Origin: Gammaproteobacteria bacterium
GTDB lineage: Bacteria; Pseudomonadota; Gammaproteobacteria; JAJPIJ01
Reading direction: 5' to 3'
Length of the DNA: 64,000 nt
Assembly: GCA_022072255.1 (NCBI GenBank)
Contig: JAJVHZ010000036.1
Coordinates: 1 to 64,000 of the forward strand
Shown here: positions 9,648 to 18,766 of the stretch, piece by piece
Numbering within the stretch: position 1 is the first letter of the stretch
Layout: each line of letters begins with the position of its first letter
Notes under the pieces: model-generated
What the model saw: the letters and a program-made list of their open reading frames with translations, nothing else
The model's database searches: none
Told to the model about the DNA's origin: nothing
Made by a program: the position numbers and the translations under genes

Positions 9648-11207
9648 TCAGATCAACCCCAGCGCCCAGGGCGCCAGGGCATAGCAGATCAGCGCGATCA
9701 GCACCGCCCCGGCGAGATCGATCAGCAGCCCGCTGCGCGCCATCTGCGGGACCGTGATGTAGCCGCTGGAGAACACGATGGCGTTCGGCGGCGTGCCCGC
9801 CGGCAGCATGAATCCGAAGGACGCGGCGATCGTGGCCGCCATCATCAGCGGCGCGGGATTGCGGCCGATCTCCGCCGCCAGCGCGACGAGCAGCGGCAGG
9901 ATGATGTTGGCGGTCGCGGTGTTGGACGCGACCTCGGTCAGGATCACCGTGATGAGGCACACGCACAGGATGAGCAGCAGAGGCGGCAGCTGATCGAGGT
10001 CGCGCAACCAGCCGCCCACCCAGTTCGACAGTCCGCTCTGCTGTATGCCGTAGGCCATCGCGAATCCGCCGCCCAGCAGGACGAGCAGGCCCCAGGGCAC
10101 ACGCACGGCGTTGCGCAGGCTCAGTGCCCTGCGCGTCGGCTGGCCGGGAACCGGGATGAAAAGCAGCAGGATACCGACCCCCATCGCCACCGCCGCATCG
10201 CCCACATCCTGCGCCAGCAGTCTGGCGAGCGGCGCCGGCAGGGATTCCACGGGCCTGCCGATGACGTCGGACCAGCCCCAGGTCACCAGGTCCCACCAGC
10301 CCGGTATCACGAATCCGCCGAGCTCGATGTCCTTGCGGAATATCCACAGCCACGCGGCCGTGAGAAACGCCACGAGCGCGATGCGTTCACCGGGATTCAT
10401 CGTTCCCAGGCGCCGGCGTTCCCCGGCGATGTAGGCGGCGCTGTCGACGAATCCGGCAGCGGGCAGCGGCGCAGCCACCCGCACCAGGTACAGCCAGACC
10501 AGGGGTAGCGCAATGGCCACGATCGGCACGCCCACCTTCAGCCACGTCAGGAAATCCACGTCGTGGTTCAGCAGCGGATCGGCCAGCTTCACGAACACCA
10601 GATTCGGCGCGGTGCCGATCTTCGTGCCGATGCCGCCGATGCTCGCGGCGTAGGCGATGCCGAGCATGAGGGCGAGGCCGAACCGCGACAGCAACTGTTC
10701 GTCGACGTGCTGTTCGCGCAGCCTGATGAGCACCGCCATGCCTATCGGATACATCATCATTGCCGTGGCGGTGTTGGAGATCCACATGCTGATGAAGGCG
10801 GTCCCGAGCATGAAGCCCAGCACGATCCGGCGCGGGCTGGCGCCGATGGCGTCGACGATCGCCAGCGCGATGCGCCTGTGCAGTCCCCATTGCTGCATGG
10901 AGGCGGCGATCATCATGCCGCCGAGGAAAAGGAAATTCACCGGGTCGGTGTACTGCAGCGCGACGCCGAACAGCGGCGCCACCTCGATCGCCGGGAAAAC
11001 GAACAACGGCACGCAGGCGGTCGCCCACAGGGGCACCGGCTCGGTGATCCACCAGATCGTCATCAGCGCCGCCGTGCCCGCGGTCCATGCCTGCTGCATG
11101 CTCATGCCCCATTCCGGGCCGTAGAGGCCGCAGAACATGAAACACAGCGGCCCCAGCATCCATCCGGTCAGCTGGCGGAACCCGAAACTGGAAAATGGGC
11201 GGGGCAT
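9648..11207 (-). CDS. DASS/SLC13-family sodium:anion (dicarboxylate) symporter
   Basis: 519 residues, almost entirely hydrophobic, with about a dozen membrane segments. The two inverted-repeat SNT signatures characteristic of the divalent-anion:sodium symporters are visible: ISNTATAMMMYP (about 145) and ASNTATANIILPLL (about 420). PAGTPPNAIVF near 465 is the second substrate/sodium hairpin. Likely cargo is a C4-dicarboxylate, citrate or sulfate-like dianion; the sequence alone does not decide. Two fumarases lie 5 kb away, which makes a TCA-cycle dicarboxylate plausible but unproven. It lies on the same strand as the TetR/SoxYZ-like cassette but behind a strong terminator, so it is probably transcribed separately. 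The start has no good ribosome site and may be slightly misplaced. Confidence 0.88.
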   Translation of the reverse strand: MPRPFSSFGFRQLTGWMLGPLCFMFCGLYGPEWGMSMQQAWTAGTAALMTIWWITEPVPLWATACVPLFVFPAIEVAPLFGVALQYTDPVNFLFLGGMMIAASMQQWGLHRRIALAIVDAIGASPRRIVLGFMLGTAFISMWISNTATAMMMYPIGMAVLIRLREQHVDEQLLSRFGLALMLGIAYAASIGGIGTKIGTAPNLVFVKLADPLLNHDVDFLTWLKVGVPIVAIALPLVWLYLVRVAAPLPAAGFVDSAAYIAGERRRLGTMNPGERIALVAFLTAAWLWIFRKDIELGGFVIPGWWDLVTWGWSDVIGRPVESLPAPLARLLAQDVGDAAVAMGVGILLLFIPVPGQPTRRALSLRNAVRVPWGLLVLLGGGFAMAYGIQQSGLSNWVGGWLRDLDQLPPLLLILCVCLITVILTEVASNTATANIILPLLVALAAEIGRNPAPLMMAATIAASFGFMLPAGTPPNAIVFSSGYITVPQMARSGLLIDLAGAVLIALICYALAPWALGLI

Positions 11208-11310: not shown

Positions 11311-11339
11311 AAAAACCGAGGGGCGCCGAAGCGCCCCTC
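11311..11339 (-). terminator. Intrinsic terminator after the SoxYZ-like gene
   Basis: On the minus strand there is a perfect 9-bp GC-rich stem, a stable TTCG tetraloop, then GG and five T residues. It lies 26 bp after the stop of the SoxYZ-like gene and separates that cassette from the DASS transporter gene. Confidence 0.85.
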
Positions 11340-11365
11340 ATCCAACGCACCATGCCGGTGGGGCG

Positions 11366-12250
11366 TCAGGTGCTCTTGTCGGCGGTGGCGGCCGCGGCCG
11401 GGGCTTCGGTGACATCGAAGACCTCGGACCACTTGTTGCCCTTGCTGTCCTCGATGTCGGCGCGCAGCGTGCCGCCGGTGCCGGGCTTGAAGAAGAACCG
11501 GAAGCTCGGATCCTGGCTGATGGAGATGCCGGTCTCCGCGCTCATCACCACCTTGTCGTTGTATACCAGCGTGACCTTGTTGATGAAATGCGGCGGCACG
11601 ATGTTGCCAGTGCGCTGGTTGATCGACATGCCGGTGAAATTCGGGTGACTGATGCTGAACTGGCCGAGCTGCGTCTGGTCGCCGAGGATCTCCCCGACGG
11701 TGCGGAATCTCATCTTGCCGGCCGTCTTGAGCGCCTCGTAGATGTCGCCGCCGAACGGATCCGAGCAGCCGCCCGAGGCCTTCACGTAATTGGTGACCAT
11801 GTGATGCTCGCCGTTGTTCAGCACGGCGACGGCGCGGATGTTGGTGTAGCGATCGATGCGCACCCGCAACGCGAGGTCGGCCTTGCCGGTGTCGGGCGTG
11901 AAATGGAAGGTCCCGACCAGCGGCTGCGGATTGTTGTCGACGATGACGTAGAGGGTCTTGATGTATCGTTCCGGGGACTGATCGAACTGCGCGGTTATCG
12001 ACAGCGGCGTCACCGCCGCATCCTCGGCGCGATACGGCGTCTTCATCTCGATGACGGTCTTGTCCTCGATGATCTCGACATCCTTGAAGAACGCCTCGCG
12101 CAGGAAGGTCGCCCACAGGTCCACGTCCGACTTCATCTCCTTGGGCCGGGCGATTTCGAGCATCTCCTCGGCCGCCGCCTGACCCATCGGCAGGGCGCCG
12201 ATCAAAGCCAGCGCGACGATGAGGCCGCGCCTGTATGTCTGCATGTTCAT
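11366..12250 (-). CDS. Quinoprotein dehydrogenase-associated SoxYZ-like carrier protein
   Basis: 294 residues with a clear Sec signal peptide (GLIVALALIGALPMGQAAAEE, cleavage near 27), so periplasmic. The N-terminal half is SoxY-like and contains KASGGCSDPFGG (about 159-170) with the single conserved cysteine, which here is internal rather than at a C-terminal GGCGG tip. The C-terminal half is SoxZ-like (HPNFTGMSINQRTGN, FINKVTLVYNDK). This SoxY-SoxZ fusion is known from genomes with PQQ-dependent alcohol dehydrogenases and is assumed to carry an intermediate or relay electrons; its chemistry is unproven. AGGAGG seven bases before the ATG makes the start firm. It is the last gene of the TetR-hydrolase-carrier cassette. 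No PQQ dehydrogenase is in the window. Confidence 0.88.
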   Translation of the reverse strand: MNMQTYRRGLIVALALIGALPMGQAAAEEMLEIARPKEMKSDVDLWATFLREAFFKDVEIIEDKTVIEMKTPYRAEDAAVTPLSITAQFDQSPERYIKTLYVIVDNNPQPLVGTFHFTPDTGKADLALRVRIDRYTNIRAVAVLNNGEHHMVTNYVKASGGCSDPFGGDIYEALKTAGKMRFRTVGEILGDQTQLGQFSISHPNFTGMSINQRTGNIVPPHFINKVTLVYNDKVVMSAETGISISQDPSFRFFFKPGTGGTLRADIEDSKGNKWSEVFDVTEAPAAAATADKST

Positions 12251-12323
12251 GATATGCCTCCTAAGCTCCGCCGTGATCTTCGCGACCGCCGCCTGACGCC
12301 GGAGTCGCCTCTTGCAAGTCCGC

Positions 12324-13301
12324 TCATTCCCACTCCAGTTCCGTGTAGGCGCGCGAGACGTTGCGCTTGTGCTGCTGGTCCCACAACTGCCAGCGTCCGC
12401 GTTCCGACAGGCCTACCGTCTCCACCGCCTCGTCGATATCCTTGCCGTCGGCGATCTGCGCCCTGACCTCGGCGACCACGGTCTCCATGTAGCGCTTCTC
12501 GTCGGCGAGCGCGGCCTTGAGTTCCTCGCCGACCGGGCCATGGCCCGGGATCACCGTCCTGACGCCCTGCTCCTGCTCCAGCGTGCCGATCACCTTCAGC
12601 CAGCCGAGCACGCTGCCGTCGAACGACGGCAGCCGCTCGCGAAACAACAGATCTCCCAGCCAGAACGTACCGGTGTCGACGTCGAGCACGGAAAGATCGC
12701 TATGCGTGTGCGCCGTCGGGTAGGCCGTCAGACGCAGCGTCTTGCCGCCCAGGTCCAGCTCGAGCATGGAGTCCACGGTCCGATCGGGCAGGATGATGTC
12801 GGCATTGCTCGGATGCTCGCCGAGATATTTGCCGAAGTGCTCCAGTACGTAGGCATTGTCGCCACCGAGGGCCTCGGGCAATTTCTGATGTCCGATGAAC
12901 TCGGGCTTGTCGTCCCTGAAGGCGATGTTGCCGAAGTAGTGATCGAAATGCGAGTGGGTGTTGATGACGTAGCAGATCGGCGCCGATGTACGTTCGCGTA
13001 TCGCATCCCTCAGGGCCCGTCCGACGGCCACCGATCCGCCGGTATCGACGACCGCCACGCACTTCTCCCCGACGATGAAGCCGATGTTGGCGATATCGTC
13101 GGTATCGGGATCCTCGAATGTCACATGCTTTCCCAGGTGCACGAAATTGCCCGGCGCGACCTCCTGGAGATTGAAGGGCGGCGCATAGGCGGCTGCGCGC
13201 AGGCTGTATGTCAGTGCCGCGCTCGCGGCCAGCGCCGCCAGGACCAGGGCGGCGTACACGCCGCGGGATCCATGGCCGTTGCCGGGGTATCGGTGTGTCA
13301 T
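12324..13301 (-). CDS. Quinoprotein relay system metallo-beta-lactamase-fold hydrolase
   Basis: 325 residues. An N-terminal hydrophobic segment (about 15-36) acts as signal or anchor. The metallo-beta-lactamase fold follows, with the zinc motif THSHFDH (about 115-121), TAHTHSDLSVLD (about 193) and VIPGHGPVG (about 250). The opening NLQEVAPGNFVHLGKHVTFEDP matches the SoxH-like 'quinoprotein relay system zinc metallohydrolase' families found next to SoxYZ-fusion proteins; I favour the type 2 subgroup but cannot separate the subtypes by eye. It probably acts in the periplasm on the product or the thiol-bound form carried by the SoxYZ-like protein. Spacing is 22 bp to the TetR gene and 73 bp to the carrier gene, consistent with one operon. 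Confidence 0.85.
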   Translation of the reverse strand: MTHRYPGNGHGSRGVYAALVLAALAASAALTYSLRAAAYAPPFNLQEVAPGNFVHLGKHVTFEDPDTDDIANIGFIVGEKCVAVVDTGGSVAVGRALRDAIRERTSAPICYVINTHSHFDHYFGNIAFRDDKPEFIGHQKLPEALGGDNAYVLEHFGKYLGEHPSNADIILPDRTVDSMLELDLGGKTLRLTAYPTAHTHSDLSVLDVDTGTFWLGDLLFRERLPSFDGSVLGWLKVIGTLEQEQGVRTVIPGHGPVGEELKAALADEKRYMETVVAEVRAQIADGKDIDEAVETVGLSERGRWQLWDQQHKRNVSRAYTELEWE

Positions 13302-13323
13302 CCGGGCGAGTGCCTCTAAACGG

Positions 13324-13914
13324 TTAGACTGCCGTGGCGCCGCCGGTTCGCCGGGCCGTCACCGAATCAATCAGGTGATCGATGACGTCCTCGATGCGCG
13401 TGCGGTCCGTGAACGCGCGGGCGGCGACCATGGCCCCTTCCATGGCCGCGACAAAGGTTCTGCCGACCGTTCTCGGGTCGAGGTCGGGGCGGAATTCGCC
13501 GCTTGCCTGCCCATCGCGTACGGTCTGGGCGACCCACGACTCGCCACTCTGCCAGAAATCGCGTACGCCGCTCCGGACCTCCTCCGGTATCGCGTCCTGT
13601 CCCATCGCCAGCATGCACATCGGGCAGAGCCGGTCGCCCTGTCCCCAGGTGCGCAGGAACAGGCCGCAGTAGCGCCGCAGTCGCTCGCCCGCCGATCTGG
13701 CGGAGGCATCGATATCGGCGATCGCGGCCGAGGTCGCCTCGCGCACCCGCTCCACGATCGCCATGGCAAGATCGGCCTTGGTCGGAAAGTGATAGTGGAT
13801 GCTCGCCGTGCGTATCCCGACACGCTTGGCGATATCCCGGTAACTGAAGGCGTGGAATCCCACCTTCTGGATGTATTCCTGCCCGATATCAATTATCTGT
13901 GCGGATGTTGCCAT
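13324..13914 (-). CDS. TetR-family transcriptional regulator
   Basis: 196 residues. A classic TetR DNA-binding domain spans about 8-55: IIDIGQEYIQKVGFHAFSYR, then DIAKRVGIRTASIHYHFPTKADL with the turn-and-YHF recognition helix. The C-terminal ligand domain carries two cysteines close together in LCPMCMLAMGQD (about 96-107), as in cysteine-sensing relatives such as NemR/AcuR, hinting at an electrophile or aldehyde signal; that is inference. It is the first gene of the cassette with the MBL hydrolase and SoxYZ-like carrier. An imperfect palindrome overlapping its own promoter begins 17 bp before the ATG, so autorepression of the whole operon is likely. Confidence 0.88.
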   Translation of the reverse strand: MATSAQIIDIGQEYIQKVGFHAFSYRDIAKRVGIRTASIHYHFPTKADLAMAIVERVREATSAAIADIDASARSAGERLRRYCGLFLRTWGQGDRLCPMCMLAMGQDAIPEEVRSGVRDFWQSGESWVAQTVRDGQASGEFRPDLDPRTVGRTFVAAMEGAMVAARAFTDRTRIEDVIDHLIDSVTARRTGGATAV

Positions 13915-13930
13915 GGGTGGATGGGTTTAT

Positions 13931-13974
13931 CTATCTATTGGTAGGTAGTTTACACGAACAAACGACGATTGCAA
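13931..13974 (-). promoter_or_regulatory. TetR operator overlapping a sigma-70 promoter
   Basis: On the minus strand TTGCAA (13969-13974), a 16-bp spacer and TAAACT (13947-13952) form a plausible promoter, each box matching four of six consensus bases. Overlapping its downstream edge is an 18-bp imperfect palindrome (13931-13948) with arms CTACCTA and TAGATAG, six of seven arm positions pairing. The region is AT-rich against a GC-rich background. Position and symmetry fit an operator for the adjacent TetR protein. Confidence 0.6.
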
Positions 13975-14110: not shown

Positions 14111-14629
14111 ATGAGCCGACAGGAAAAATCCCTTTACATGACCGTCCTCATGACGCCCGACATGGCCAACTTCTCCGGCAAGGTGCATGGCGGGGCGCTG
14201 CTGAAGCTGCTCGACCAGGTCGCGTATGCCTGCGCCGCGCGTTACGCGAAGAGCTATGTCATCACCGCATCGCTCGACCTGGTCACCTTCAAGCAGTCCG
14301 TCGGGGTGGGGGAGCTGGTGACATTCATGGCCAACGTCAATTACGTAGGCACCAGTTCCATGGAGGTGGGCGTGAAGGTCATGGCCGAGAACCTGCGCAC
14401 CAAGGAGAAGCGGCACGCAAGCTCGTGCTTCTTCACGATGGTGGCGGTCGGCGAGGATGGCCGCCCCATGACCGTTCCGCGGCTCGAGATCGAGACCGAC
14501 ATCGAGCAACGTCTGTTCGATGCGGGCAAGATGCGCAAGGAGATGCGCAAGGAGATCCAGCAGCGCAACGACGCCCTGCACGTACGCATACCGGAGGGCC
14601 AGACACCGAGCGGCGCGGTGACCGGCTGA
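14111..14629 (+). CDS. YciA-like hotdog-fold acyl-CoA thioesterase
   Basis: 172 residues. The hotdog thioesterase signature GKVHGGALLKLLDQVAYACA is near residues 20-39, with VTFKQSVGVGELVTFMANVNYVG and STSSMEVGVKV-type strands after it, as in the YciA/BACH acyl-CoA hydrolases. These cytosolic enzymes cleave acyl-CoA to free acid and CoA and are thought to balance CoA pools. The C-terminal tail beyond about 120 is charged (KMRKEMRKEIQQRND) and longer than in YciA of E. coli. ATG 14111 is chosen from the family N-terminus; the frame stays open a further 102 bp upstream without similarity. It is transcribed divergently from the TetR cassette. Confidence 0.85.
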   Translation: MSRQEKSLYMTVLMTPDMANFSGKVHGGALLKLLDQVAYACAARYAKSYVITASLDLVTFKQSVGVGELVTFMANVNYVGTSSMEVGVKVMAENLRTKEKRHASSCFFTMVAVGEDGRPMTVPRLEIETDIEQRLFDAGKMRKEMRKEIQQRNDALHVRIPEGQTPSGAVTG

Positions 14630-15665: not shown

Positions 15666-16631
15666 TCAGAAATGCGCGTAGCCGGCAATGTGACGATCGA
15701 CGACCCTACCCCCGGCCTCCACGAAGCGCAGGCCCGGGCGCGCGACGACCGTACCGATACGCGTCAACGGCACGCCGTCCTGCGCGCGCCAGGCTCCCAG
15801 CGCCGATTCGCGCCCGGGTGGCACCGTGAAGCACAGTTCGTAGTCATCACCGCCGCCGAGCGCACGCTCGATCGCCGCGTCGCCGCGCTCACAGGCGCGC
15901 AGCGACGCGGAGATCGGCAGGCGGGCGAGATCAACCTCCGCACCCCTGCCGCTGGCCTCGAGCACGTGCCGCAGGTCGGCCGCCAGTCCGTCCGACACGT
16001 CGATGGCGCTGCTGGCGATCCCGCGGAGGAATTGGCCCAGCGCGACCCGCGGCTCCGGCCGCAGAAACCGGCGTGTGAGCGCCGACCCGGAGTCCGCGTC
16101 GCACTCCGTCTCGCCCACGAGCACGCGCAGACCGGCCGCGGCATCGCCGAGGGTACCGGTGACGTACACGCCATCGCCGGCGCCGGCTCCCGCTCGCCGC
16201 AGTGACTGTCCGGCGGGCACCCAGCCGTGCGCAGTGACGGTGACCGTCAGCGGACCGCGTGTGGTATCTCCGCCCACCAACTGCATGTCGAAACGCTCCG
16301 CCAGTCCGAGCAGCCCGTCGGCGAACCCGTGCAGCCACGTCTCGTCGGCCTGCGGCACCGTGAGGGCGAGGCTGCACCACGCCGGCTCGGCCCCCATGGC
16401 CGCCAGATCGCTGAGATTCACGGCCAGGGCGCGGTACCCGACGTCGCCCGCACTCATGGTCACGGGGAAATGCACCCCGGCCACGATGGTGTCGGTCACC
16501 AGCACCAGTTCGTGGCCCGGCCGCGGCCTGAGGACCGCGCCGTCGTCGCCGATCCCGATCGCCACGTCGTCACGGCGCGCGCCGCCGCGTCTGAAATAGC
16601 GATCGATGAGCTCGAATTCGGAGACGGACAT
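15666..16631 (-). CDS. thiL: Thiamine-monophosphate kinase
   Basis: Phosphorylates thiamine monophosphate to the active cofactor thiamine diphosphate with ATP. 321 residues, usual length. ThiL motifs are present: SEFELIDRYF at the N-terminus, IGIGDDGAVL (about 27-36), TDTIVAGVHFP, NLSDLAAMGAEPAW, GGDTTRGP, and the C-terminal IDVSDGLAADLRH and GGGDDYELCF motifs. ATG 16631 is chosen because homologs start at SEFELI; an upstream in-frame start would add 19 residues of low complexity. It is the last gene of the nrdR-rib-nusB-thiL run, 66 bp after nusB. The often adjacent pgpA is not present here. Confidence 0.95.
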   Translation of the reverse strand: MSVSEFELIDRYFRRGGARRDDVAIGIGDDGAVLRPRPGHELVLVTDTIVAGVHFPVTMSAGDVGYRALAVNLSDLAAMGAEPAWCSLALTVPQADETWLHGFADGLLGLAERFDMQLVGGDTTRGPLTVTVTAHGWVPAGQSLRRAGAGAGDGVYVTGTLGDAAAGLRVLVGETECDADSGSALTRRFLRPEPRVALGQFLRGIASSAIDVSDGLAADLRHVLEASGRGAEVDLARLPISASLRACERGDAAIERALGGGDDYELCFTVPPGRESALGAWRAQDGVPLTRIGTVVARPGLRFVEAGGRVVDRHIAGYAHF

Positions 16632-16697
16632 TGGGCTCGGCCTGCTGGCGACGGATCGGATGCTGGCGGCGGCACCGGGCCCGGGCAAGGGGCTCCG

Positions 16698-17162
16698 CTA
16701 TCCCGTTCCAGCCGCCGTCTCGACCGGCCGCAGGGCGCGCGCCAGGCGGTCCAGTGCAGTGTTCACGTAGCGATGGCCCTGTTCGGCGCCGAACATCTTC
16801 TCCAGCTCGATGGCCTCGTTGATGACCACGCGCCATGGCGTCTCGATGCAGTGCCGAAGCTCATAGGCGCCGATGAGCAGGATCGCACGCTCCACCGGGT
16901 CGAGCTCCCGCACCGGCCGATCGATCACGCTCATCAAGTCCGCTTCGAGCTCCTCGATGTGGCGCGGGATGCCGCGCGTCAGCGTCTCGAACAACCCCAT
17001 GTCGGCATTGACCACCTCGCGCTCGGCGACGAACTCTTTCAGTATGTCGTTCGGATCCTGGCCCGCGAGCTGCCACTGGTACAGCGCCTGCACGGCACAG
17101 CGCCGCGCGCGCACGCGCGCGTGCGCGGCCGTGCTGCCCCGCCTGCTCTTCCCCGAGCCCAT
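16698..17162 (-). CDS. nusB: Transcription antitermination factor NusB
   Basis: 154 residues of the all-helical NusB fold, with ARRCAVQALYQWQLAG near the N-terminus, then LDPVERAILLIGAYELRH and VVINEAIELEKMFG, which are diagnostic. NusB pairs with S10 (NusE) on boxA RNA for rRNA antitermination. The N-terminus has a basic extension (SRRGSTAAHARVRARR) encoded partly by an alternating purine-pyrimidine GC tract. Its ATG directly follows the ribH stop (TAGATG), so the two are translated in tandem. The ribH-nusB-thiL order is widespread. Confidence 0.95.
   Translation of the reverse strand: MGSGKSRRGSTAAHARVRARRCAVQALYQWQLAGQDPNDILKEFVAEREVVNADMGLFETLTRGIPRHIEELEADLMSVIDRPVRELDPVERAILLIGAYELRHCIETPWRVVINEAIELEKMFGAEQGHRYVNTALDRLARALRPVETAAGTG
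17104..17127. repeat. 24-bp alternating purine-pyrimidine tract in the start of nusB
   Basis: A strictly alternating pyrimidine-purine run of CG/CA/TG steps covers 24 bp within the early codons of nusB, and bases 17109-17126 are a perfect 18-bp palindrome. Such tracts favour Z-DNA or cruciform extrusion under negative supercoiling. It is coding sequence as well. Confidence 0.55.
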
Positions 17163-17642
17163 CTACCTGCCCAGGTTCCGCGTGAGATTGATCATCTCGA
17201 TGGCGACCAGGGCCGCCTCGGAACCCTTGTTGCCCATGGCCCCCCCGGCCCGGGCCTCCGCCTGTTCATCGTTCTCGGTCGTCAGCACGCCAAAGGCGAT
17301 GGGGATGTCGAGATCCGCGCTCACCTCCGACACCCCGCGCGCGCACTCGCCGGCGACATAATCGAAGTGCGGCGTCTCCCCGCGTATGACGGCGCCCAGG
17401 GCGATCAGCGCGTCGTAGTCCCCCGACATCGCCATGCGCCTTGCCGCGAAGGCGATCTCGTAGGCCCCCGGGACGCGCACGACCGTGATGCGCCTGCCCG
17501 CCACGCCGCGTTCCTTCAACGTCTGCACGCAACCATCGATCAGTTTGCCGACGATCTCGTCGTTGAAGCGACTGGCGATGATGCCGATACGCGCGTCCTC
17601 CGATGGGGTGTCTCCACCTTCTATCTGCCTGACGTCTGCCAT
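17163..17642 (-). CDS. ribH: 6,7-dimethyl-8-ribityllumazine synthase
   Basis: Condenses 5-amino-6-ribitylaminouracil with dihydroxybutanone phosphate to make lumazine, the penultimate step to riboflavin. 159 residues with RIGIIASRFNDEIVGKL at the N-terminus, VRVPGAYEIAFAARR, and the active-site stretch GAVIRGETPHFDYVAGE carrying the catalytic His. Two in-frame ATGs lie 6 bp apart. An AGGA motif is six bases before the second (17642) but directly abuts the first (17648), so I chose 17642. The gene starts 8 bp after the ribBA stop and its own stop abuts the nusB ATG. Confidence 0.95.
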   Translation of the reverse strand: MADVRQIEGGDTPSEDARIGIIASRFNDEIVGKLIDGCVQTLKERGVAGRRITVVRVPGAYEIAFAARRMAMSGDYDALIALGAVIRGETPHFDYVAGECARGVSEVSADLDIPIAFGVLTTENDEQAEARAGGAMGNKGSEAALVAIEMINLTRNLGR

Positions 17643-17650
17643 GTGCATTC

Positions 17651-18766
17651 CTAGTGAGTAATGTATTCGACGACCTCCAGCCCGAAGCCCGACAACGCGC
17701 TGTATTTCCTCTGCCGGCTCATGACGCGCATCTTGCGCACGCCGATGTCGGCGAGCACCTGGGCGCCGAGACCCACGGTGCGCATTTCGTCGCGCGCGGG
17801 CGGGCCCGGAGTCTCGGCCTGCGCGAGCGCAGGCTCGTGCATGCGCTGCAGACTGCGAACGAGCTGGTCGTTGTCGTACTGGTTGCGGAGTATCACCAGC
17901 ACGCCGCTCGGCTCGCGCGCGATGCGCAGCAGGGCGTCTCGCAGCGGCCAGCCGGAATCGGCGCGCGATGCCCCGGTCAGATCGAACAGCGGGTTCTCGA
18001 TGTGCACGCGCACGGCGACCGGCTTCTCCGGCTCGACCGTTCCCTGCACCAGCGCGATGTGCAGGTCGCCGGCGATGGTGTCGCGATAGGTGACCGCGCG
18101 CAATTGGCCGACGTCGGTCTGCAGATCCGTCTCCGCCACGCGTTCGATGGTCTTTTCGTTGTGTATGCGGTACCGGATCAGGTCGGCAATGGTGCCGATC
18201 TTCAGGCCATGCTGCGCAGCCATCCGTTCCAGCCCGGGACGACGGGCCATGGATCCGTCCTCGTTGAGGATCTCCACGATCACCGCCGCCGGCTCCAGAC
18301 CGGCCAGCCGCGCCAGGTCGCAACCGGCCTCGGTGTGTCCGGCGCGCGTCAGCACCCCGCCCGGCTGCGCCATCAGCGGGAAGATGTGCCCGGGCTGCAC
18401 CACGTCGCTGGGCTGGGCATCCTCGGCTACCGCCGCCTGCACGGTGCGTGCGCGATCGGCCGCCGAGATGCCGGTCGTCACCCCCGTCGCCGCCTCGATG
18501 GACACGGTGAAGTTGGTGCCGTAGTTGAAATACGTGTCGCGCACCATCAGGGGCAGGTTCAGCCGCTGGCACCGCTCGCGCGTGAGGGTCAGGCAGATGA
18601 GGCCCCGTCCGTGCGTCGCCATGAAGTTGACGTCCCCGGGCTTGACGCACGCCGCGGCCATCACCAGGTCGCCCTCGTTCTCGCGATCCTCGTCGTCCAT
18701 GATGATGACCATGCGCCCCTGACGGATGTCTTCGACGATCTCTTCGGTTGGGCTGAGTGAGGACAT
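17651..18766 (-). CDS. ribB: DHBP synthase with a degenerate GTP cyclohydrolase II domain (RibBA-like)
   Basis: 371 residues. The N-terminal DHBP synthase domain (about 1-200) is intact: [42 protein letters not shown] and [16 protein letters not shown], the acidic and His residues that convert ribulose-5-phosphate to 3,4-dihydroxy-2-butanone-4-phosphate. The C-terminal half aligns with GTP cyclohydrolase II in outline. Where the enzyme should have the zinc cysteines (an HSEC...SLRCDCG-type stretch) it reads [17 protein letters not shown], with no cysteines, so that half should not open GTP. Such RibB-RibX proteins occur in other gammaproteobacteria. A true RibA must be encoded elsewhere. The DHBP is used by RibH, the next gene. 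Confidence 0.93.

Follow-up and report, generated by a model that had tools for sequence, protein, structure and literature searches.

A tetR-linked SoxYZ-like and zinc hydrolase cassette as a candidate accessory unit for a distant PQQ dehydrogenase

Fused SoxYZ-like carriers of the TIGR04557 type are usually found near a pyrroloquinoline quinone (PQQ) dehydrogenase, although the model itself does not require this; what role is then left for such a carrier on a contig that has no PQQ dehydrogenase at all? The question is raised by a cassette at positions 11,311 to 13,974 of a 64,000-nucleotide stretch of gammaproteobacterial DNA (the window; contig JAJVHZ010000036.1), in which genes for a TetR-family repressor, a metallo-beta-lactamase (MBL) hydrolase and a SoxYZ fusion stand together. 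A tblastn search with the genome's own six dehydrogenases and PqqB, PqqC and PqqE as queries detected neither a PQQ dehydrogenase gene nor a pqq gene, either within the window or elsewhere on its contig, in line with a first-pass annotation that had seen none nearby and had proposed that the cassette may serve a distant dehydrogenase. The cassette is a real, conserved and probably regulated unit and a variant of the known SoxYZ-like/SoxH pair. With a probability of about 0.58, we take it for an accessory operon that represses itself and serves a PQQ dehydrogenase from another part of the genome; the likeliest client is the lanthanide-type XoxF on contig C3.

Dehydrogenases in the genome and across the class

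Part of the support for this assignment comes from co-occurrence. Among 369 genomes drawn from the class Gammaproteobacteria, 40 carry an unbroken fused SoxYZ (at least 140 bits and no internal stop; 58 loci), where matches with an internal stop were taken for distinct soxY and soxZ genes and two uninterrupted fusions that fell short of the cut-off (113 bits in G120, 86 bits on G173:C2) were left out. A match to the dehydrogenase model TIGR03075 (E 1e-60) is present in 64 of the 369 genomes, and these comprise 39 of the 40 genomes with the fusion and 25 of the 329 without it (Fisher 2e-34, relatedness ignored). PqqE, detected in 51 of the 369, accompanies the fusion in 35 of the 40 genomes, G313, G073, G202, G266 and G063 being those that lack it.

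The same association holds within the family set, which consists of the window's own genome (G000) and the genomes G001, G002 and G003. All four keep tetR, hydrolase and soxYZ at the same place, and all four encode a XoxF orthologue, 84-96% identical to the C3 enzyme and with its RDVD motif; this joint presence further supports the proposal of a distant client. As the XoxF orthologue is the single TIGR03075 match, among the matches listed, in both G001 and G002 (2.2-2.4 Mb), XoxF becomes the common candidate client.

The first-pass annotation had asked for a genome search, with the absence of PQQ dehydrogenases and pqq genes pointing to a different function, and both were found in the G000 assembly (4.27 Mb, 128 contigs, 95.5% complete). 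At least six PQQ dehydrogenases are encoded on other contigs (C3, C5, C7, C1 and C38, with another on C38 cut by the contig end), two of them XoxF-like; the TIGR03075 search scored at most three candidates per genome, and dehydrogenase numbers are therefore lower bounds. Vicinal cysteines (CC) are present in all six, which also favours an accessory role for the cassette. The C3 enzyme reaches 679 bits against TIGR03075 and combines CC with an RDVD motif, in which the second Asp of D-x-D is what we take to be the mark of the lanthanide type, and it is accordingly described here as a XoxF-like methanol dehydrogenase. A cupredoxin and a XoxJ-like binding protein adjoin its gene, and these neighbours are kept in three related genomes. 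Gene calls place pqqB, pqqC, pqqD and pqqE on contig C15, and two PqqE proteins score above the cut-off, with a second cluster on C1 holding pqqD, pqqE and genes for a Urate_ox_N protein, a class-V aminotransferase and a dihydroorotate dehydrogenase.

Some further details of these loci can be recorded. On C1 (L038:9705-13672) the order is pqqD-pqqE-puuD-serC-pyrD-like, beside the ordinary pqqBCDE on C15; a cluster of this type has been proposed for oxygen-independent PQQ synthesis (PMC12423496). At the end of C38 (L035:12099-17901), the second XoxF-like gene, which is cut by the contig end, is accompanied by a TonB receptor, a TIGR03866 beta-propeller and a TIGR03863-like binding protein, likely a lanthanide uptake neighbourhood. 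As a check for methanotrophy, the PF02461 (pmoA/amoA) profile matched none of the four family genomes, and the control genomes gave no match either, so this result does not establish that the genes are missing.

The cassette and its proposed private repressor

The three genes lie in the order tetR, hydrolase, soxYZ with gaps of 22 and 73 bp, and this spacing together with the shared strand is consistent with a single transcript. Their coordinates and family profiles agree with the first description of the locus.

13947-13974, minus strand: proposed promoter, -35 TTGCAA (13974-13969), 16 nt, -10 TAAACT (13952-13947), read by eye
13931-13948, no strand: putative TetR operator, palindrome CTAYCTAYYRRTAGRTAG, from conservation upstream of tetR
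13324-13914, minus strand: TetR-family repressor, 196 amino acids, TetR_N and TetR_C_13, CPMC cysteine pair (Pfam, sequence)
12324-13301, minus strand: SoxH-type zinc hydrolase, periplasmic, TIGR04559 ("quinoprotein relay system zinc metallohydrolase 2"; profile, alignment, model)
11366-12250, minus strand: fused SoxY-SoxZ carrier, TIGR04557, with an N-terminal signal-like stretch (profile, alignment, model)
11317-11340, minus strand: terminator-like hairpin and T-run after soxYZ (hairpin scan)
14111-14629, plus strand: hotdog-fold thioesterase (4HBT), divergent, conserved neighbour (Pfam, synteny)
15666-18766, minus strand: thiL, nusB, ribH and ribBA, syntenic anchor of the window's SoxYZ clade (gene calls, synteny)

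The family matches of the carrier and the hydrolase favour the accessory reading. SoxYZ scores 239.1 bits against TIGR04557, the quinoprotein dehydrogenase-associated SoxYZ-like carrier (cut-off 140; profile positions 1-225 of 226), Pfam SoxY and SoxZ are both matched in one frame, as expected of a fused carrier, and every one of the 50 sequences aligned has the carrier cysteine C162. In a fold search with its confident AlphaFold model (mean predicted local distance difference test score, pLDDT, 86.1), SoxY and SoxZ chains were matched domain by domain with template modelling scores to the target of 0.70-0.82; transglutaminase and other multi-domain beta proteins also appeared and were discounted (root mean square deviation about 15-23). 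The hydrolase scores 367.2 bits against TIGR04559 (cut-off 280) and keeps all seven zinc ligands (H116, H118, D120, H121, H198, D217 and H254), as do all 17 aligned sequences. Its model, also confident (mean pLDDT 89.1), resembles MBL-fold hydrolases on structure comparison, alkylsulfatases included, and this too is in keeping with an accessory unit.

The first-pass annotation had given the operon an operator of its own. Upstream of tetR lies the 18-bp palindrome CTACCTACCAATAGATAG at 13931-13948, and its conservation upholds this. Its consensus is seen upstream of tetR in six genomes and is kept in every tetR-linked relative examined, including all four family genomes with 0-1 mismatch; the general repeat search missed the G000 copy, which is imperfect. 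Two genomes outside the set used to define the operator, G303 and G200, also have it with two mismatches, and in G303, as in G069, it is a tandem pair. Across 80 named loci (953,561 bases), the operator is present at 5 of 5 tetR-linked loci and 0 of 75 others. When up to two mismatches are allowed, three family genomes contain one site and G000 contains two, against 0, 0, 1 and 3 for a reversed-pattern control. The second G000 site (G000:C23:16144-16161, two mismatches) is the sole extra site in that genome, and the idea of a wider regulon was rejected on this basis. At the same tolerance, no operator was found in the family genomes at xoxF, pqq or any dehydrogenase gene, which would make TetR a private, local repressor.

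In all four family genomes the proposed -10 element shares two bases with the operator. The promoter geometry recurs in three relatives (spacers 16, 17 and 17); the -35 and -10 were picked by eye from the upstream regions, and a consensus promoter scan did not list them. A conserved palindrome at its own promoter is what would be expected of a TetR autorepressor, and TetR would then sit on this -10-overlapping site and repress its own operon.

The CPMC pair reported for TetR is present ("DRLCPMCMLA"). Of 34 TetR matches, 20 were taken as loci, and the pair takes the form CPxC in all 7 TetRs encoded at the riboflavin (rib) locus and in none of the 13 other relatives. TetR_C_13 regulators such as PDB 2g7s and 3on4 are full-length sequence relatives of the cassette TetR, but the CPxC pair and the operator mark the rib-locus SoxYZ-linked group. 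The restriction of the operator to tetR-linked loci and of CPxC to rib-locus TetRs is new here, and both distributions support the reading of a dedicated accessory operon. At L165:6355-6712 (G200) the operator is kept and TetR matches only in two pieces, a frameshift or decay.

Downstream, a hairpin at 11340-11317 directly past the soxYZ stop has a 10-bp stem, a TTCG loop and a T-run. The hairpin scan found one structure against a mean of 1.5 in shuffled sequence, and the earlier call of a terminator stands as a terminator-like element by position and shape, not by count. The divergent 4HBT thioesterase probably lies outside the tetR-hydrolase-soxYZ unit.

A standalone branch of SoxYZ carriers

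The absence of a neighbouring dehydrogenase is not a peculiarity of the window. Of the 58 SoxYZ loci, 28 lie within 10 kb of a dehydrogenase match scoring 100 bits or more. A further 17 show no clear dehydrogenase over that distance and have 5 kb or more of sequence to either side; the other 13 extend under 5 kb on one side and were classed as cut. In the IQ-TREE phylogeny the window SoxYZ is one of 19 members of a clade with support 100/99, of which none is dehydrogenase-linked, 12 are orphans and 7 are cut. The tetR-linked rib-locus proteins form a group inside this clade, with support of 81/73 for seven members and 97/87 for six. Two clade members have a distant cytochrome-PQQ-propeller protein in their vicinity (G215:C56, 81 bits, 595 bp; G123:C30, 64 bits, 3.2 kb); with the threshold set at 100 bits, neither was scored as having a clear dehydrogenase. 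A rhodanese gene adjoins the G123:C30 locus.

Neighbourhoods give the same picture. The 80 named loci divide into 19 at ribBA-ribH-nusB-thiL, 16 with a dehydrogenase no more than 7 kb away and 45 with neither; neighbours were called with a custom gene caller trained on 12 window genes, or taken from open reading frames in low-GC loci, where the caller is poor. The 19 rib-locus loci include 0 with a dehydrogenase, 6 with a DsrE-like gene, 4 with a recognisable TetR and 2 with the hydrolase, and TIGR04559 genes elsewhere often stand alone. From this census, the rib-locus soxYZ seems to be the older element, which the hydrolase later joined in the window's family; judged from these sequences, the standalone arrangement is of old date and not peculiar to G000. 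Gene-neighbourhood reasoning thus misses a whole branch of SoxYZ carriers. The DsrE-like genes at 6 of 19 rib-locus soxYZ fit the accessory reading as well, and a Pfam check of five of their products placed three above the cut-off. Such a gene adjoins standalone soxYZ in L158, L159, L165, L166, L167, L169 and L178; in L158 it shares the operator-bearing intergenic region with tetR, and in L159 the operator is at the edge of both genes.

The Pseudomonas putida homologues PP_2677-PP_2678 are described as lying side by side near PedE/PedH (PMC12997753). These are the same two protein kinds, adjacent as in the cassette, but they sit within the ped cluster by PQQ dehydrogenases, whereas the cassette stands alone on its contig and has a TetR and operator to itself. 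Similarly, the lucinid-symbiont SoxYZ-S2 and SoxYZ-S4 (PMC11237559) are fused carriers near soxH as here, linked to a quinoprotein alcohol dehydrogenase (S2) or xoxF (S4), whereas 0 of 19 members of the window clade have a clear dehydrogenase neighbour and many are at the rib-nusB-thiL locus. PMC11582611 assigns a Sox(YZ) fusion and SoxH of Hyphomicrobium to a gene ensemble for PQQ-dependent alcohol catabolism. Among the matches listed from the open-licence literature, no paper on a TetR-linked SoxYZ/SoxH unit was found.

Possible function and competing explanations

If the cassette does serve a distant quinoprotein, a mechanism can be hypothesized. TetR on the palindrome over the -10 would block its own operon and would let go of the DNA once its CPxC pair is modified by a thiol-reactive signal, be it sulfane sulfur, a persulfide or an electrophile. 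Exported SoxYZ would then take a sulfur or thiol adduct onto Cys162 from the quinoprotein in the periplasm or from its PQQ; the zinc hydrolase, likewise exported, would cut this adduct off, like SoxB or SoxH on SoxYZ, so that PQQ, or the vicinal-cysteine site of the dehydrogenases, would be protected or repaired. The SoxR/sHdrR sulfane-sulfur repressors of Hyphomicrobium denitrificans, cysteine-pair proteins over genes that include SoxYZ, serve as a working analogy only: they belong to the ArsR family and to true thiosulfate oxidation, whereas the cassette has a TetR in a genome with no detectable SoxB. The homologues have been proposed to protect PQQ from sulfur, to form disulfides or to act in maturation (PMC12997753), and also to protect methanol dehydrogenase from thiosulfate (PMC11237559, which also cites SoxH replacing SoxB in Sulfurimonas), and our reading extends these ideas to a standalone, self-regulated unit. 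More tentatively, and with less confidence than for the accessory operon as such, it could be speculated that a dedicated cytoplasmic CPxC TetR thiol sensor with a near-single operator per genome governs a private regulon, the periplasmic SoxYZ-like/SoxH pair, that repairs or protects a distant lanthanide methanol dehydrogenase, the unit belonging to a clade of standalone loci for which the riboflavin operon is the anchor. A private repressor could help to establish the role of SoxYZ-like and SoxH-like proteins beside PQQ alcohol dehydrogenases: whatever relieves TetR would be a strong hint at the pair's substrate, which makes the substrate question directly testable.

Several observations weigh against an accessory role for a dehydrogenase. 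The cassette is physically linked to none, and the operator was not found at xoxF, pqq or any dehydrogenase gene, which leaves co-regulation no more than a possibility. The carrier is not generally required, since 25 of the 64 TIGR03075 genomes are without an above-cut-off fused SoxYZ; conversely, G202 (64% complete) is the sole exception among the 40, with a fusion and no TIGR03075 match, and G120 has its uncounted 113-bit fusion and no match either. The first cysteine at the CPxC place is common across the wider TetR family, and 6 of the 13 relatives away from the rib locus carry CxC. PQQ protection is published speculation and not measurement, and the P. putida homologues are reported in a review to show a minimal phenotype on alcohols without lanthanides (PMC12997753).

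Among the alternatives, a maturation factor, which would make or rearrange the vicinal disulfide in PQQ dehydrogenases and play no part in sulfur removal, is the least improbable, though still unlikely. The CC pair in all six G000 dehydrogenases would suit it, and disulfide formation or cofactor stabilisation has been proposed for the P. putida homologues; however, one carrier cysteine and a hydrolytic zinc site offer no obvious disulfide-exchange pair, and P. aeruginosa makes CC dehydrogenases without SoxYZ-like/SoxH genes (PMC12997753 for both literature points). We give distinctly less credence to thiol-bound aldehyde detoxification, also raised in the first-pass annotation, in which the SoxYZ cysteine would trap formaldehyde or another aldehyde in the periplasm and the hydrolase would free the acid in the manner of glyoxalase II. 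Glyoxalase II has an HxHxDH-H-D-H site like the full one in the hydrolase, electrophile-sensing TetRs exist, and XoxF would yield an aldehyde. The hydrolase nevertheless matches the glyoxalase II model weakly (16 bits against a cut-off of 200.8), the operon has no oxidase partner, SoxY proteins are sulfur carriers and the DsrE-like genes at sister loci point to sulfur.

It is also improbable that the cassette is independent of PQQ, handling a stress unrelated to quinoproteins and co-occurring with them through shared ancestry. Neither gene linkage nor a shared operator ties it to dehydrogenases, the co-occurrence statistic ignores relatedness and the thioesterase neighbour is conserved; against this, 39 of 40 versus 25 of 329 is seen across many genera, and other branches of the same SoxYZ tree are dehydrogenase-linked at 28 of 58 loci. 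Least credible, and disfavoured here, is membership of a thiosulfate-oxidising Sox system. The SoxY and SoxZ folds and a separate SoxY/SoxZ pair on C2 could suggest one, but SoxB was detected in none of the four family genomes searched, which itself favours the accessory operon, the fusion falls below the cut-offs for true SoxY (64.3 against 125 bits) and true SoxZ (66.2 against 76 bits), and the cassette has no other sox gene alongside. The C2 genes (L041:10647-12930) are separate SoxZ and SoxY genes beside an M48/TPR peptidase, in the same order in G003 (L046) and G001 (L047).

Downstream of the cassette, past the hairpin and on the same strand, the window encodes a DASS-family sodium:anion symporter (9648-11207), which is also at this place in G003, of the same genus, and is not there in G001 and G002.

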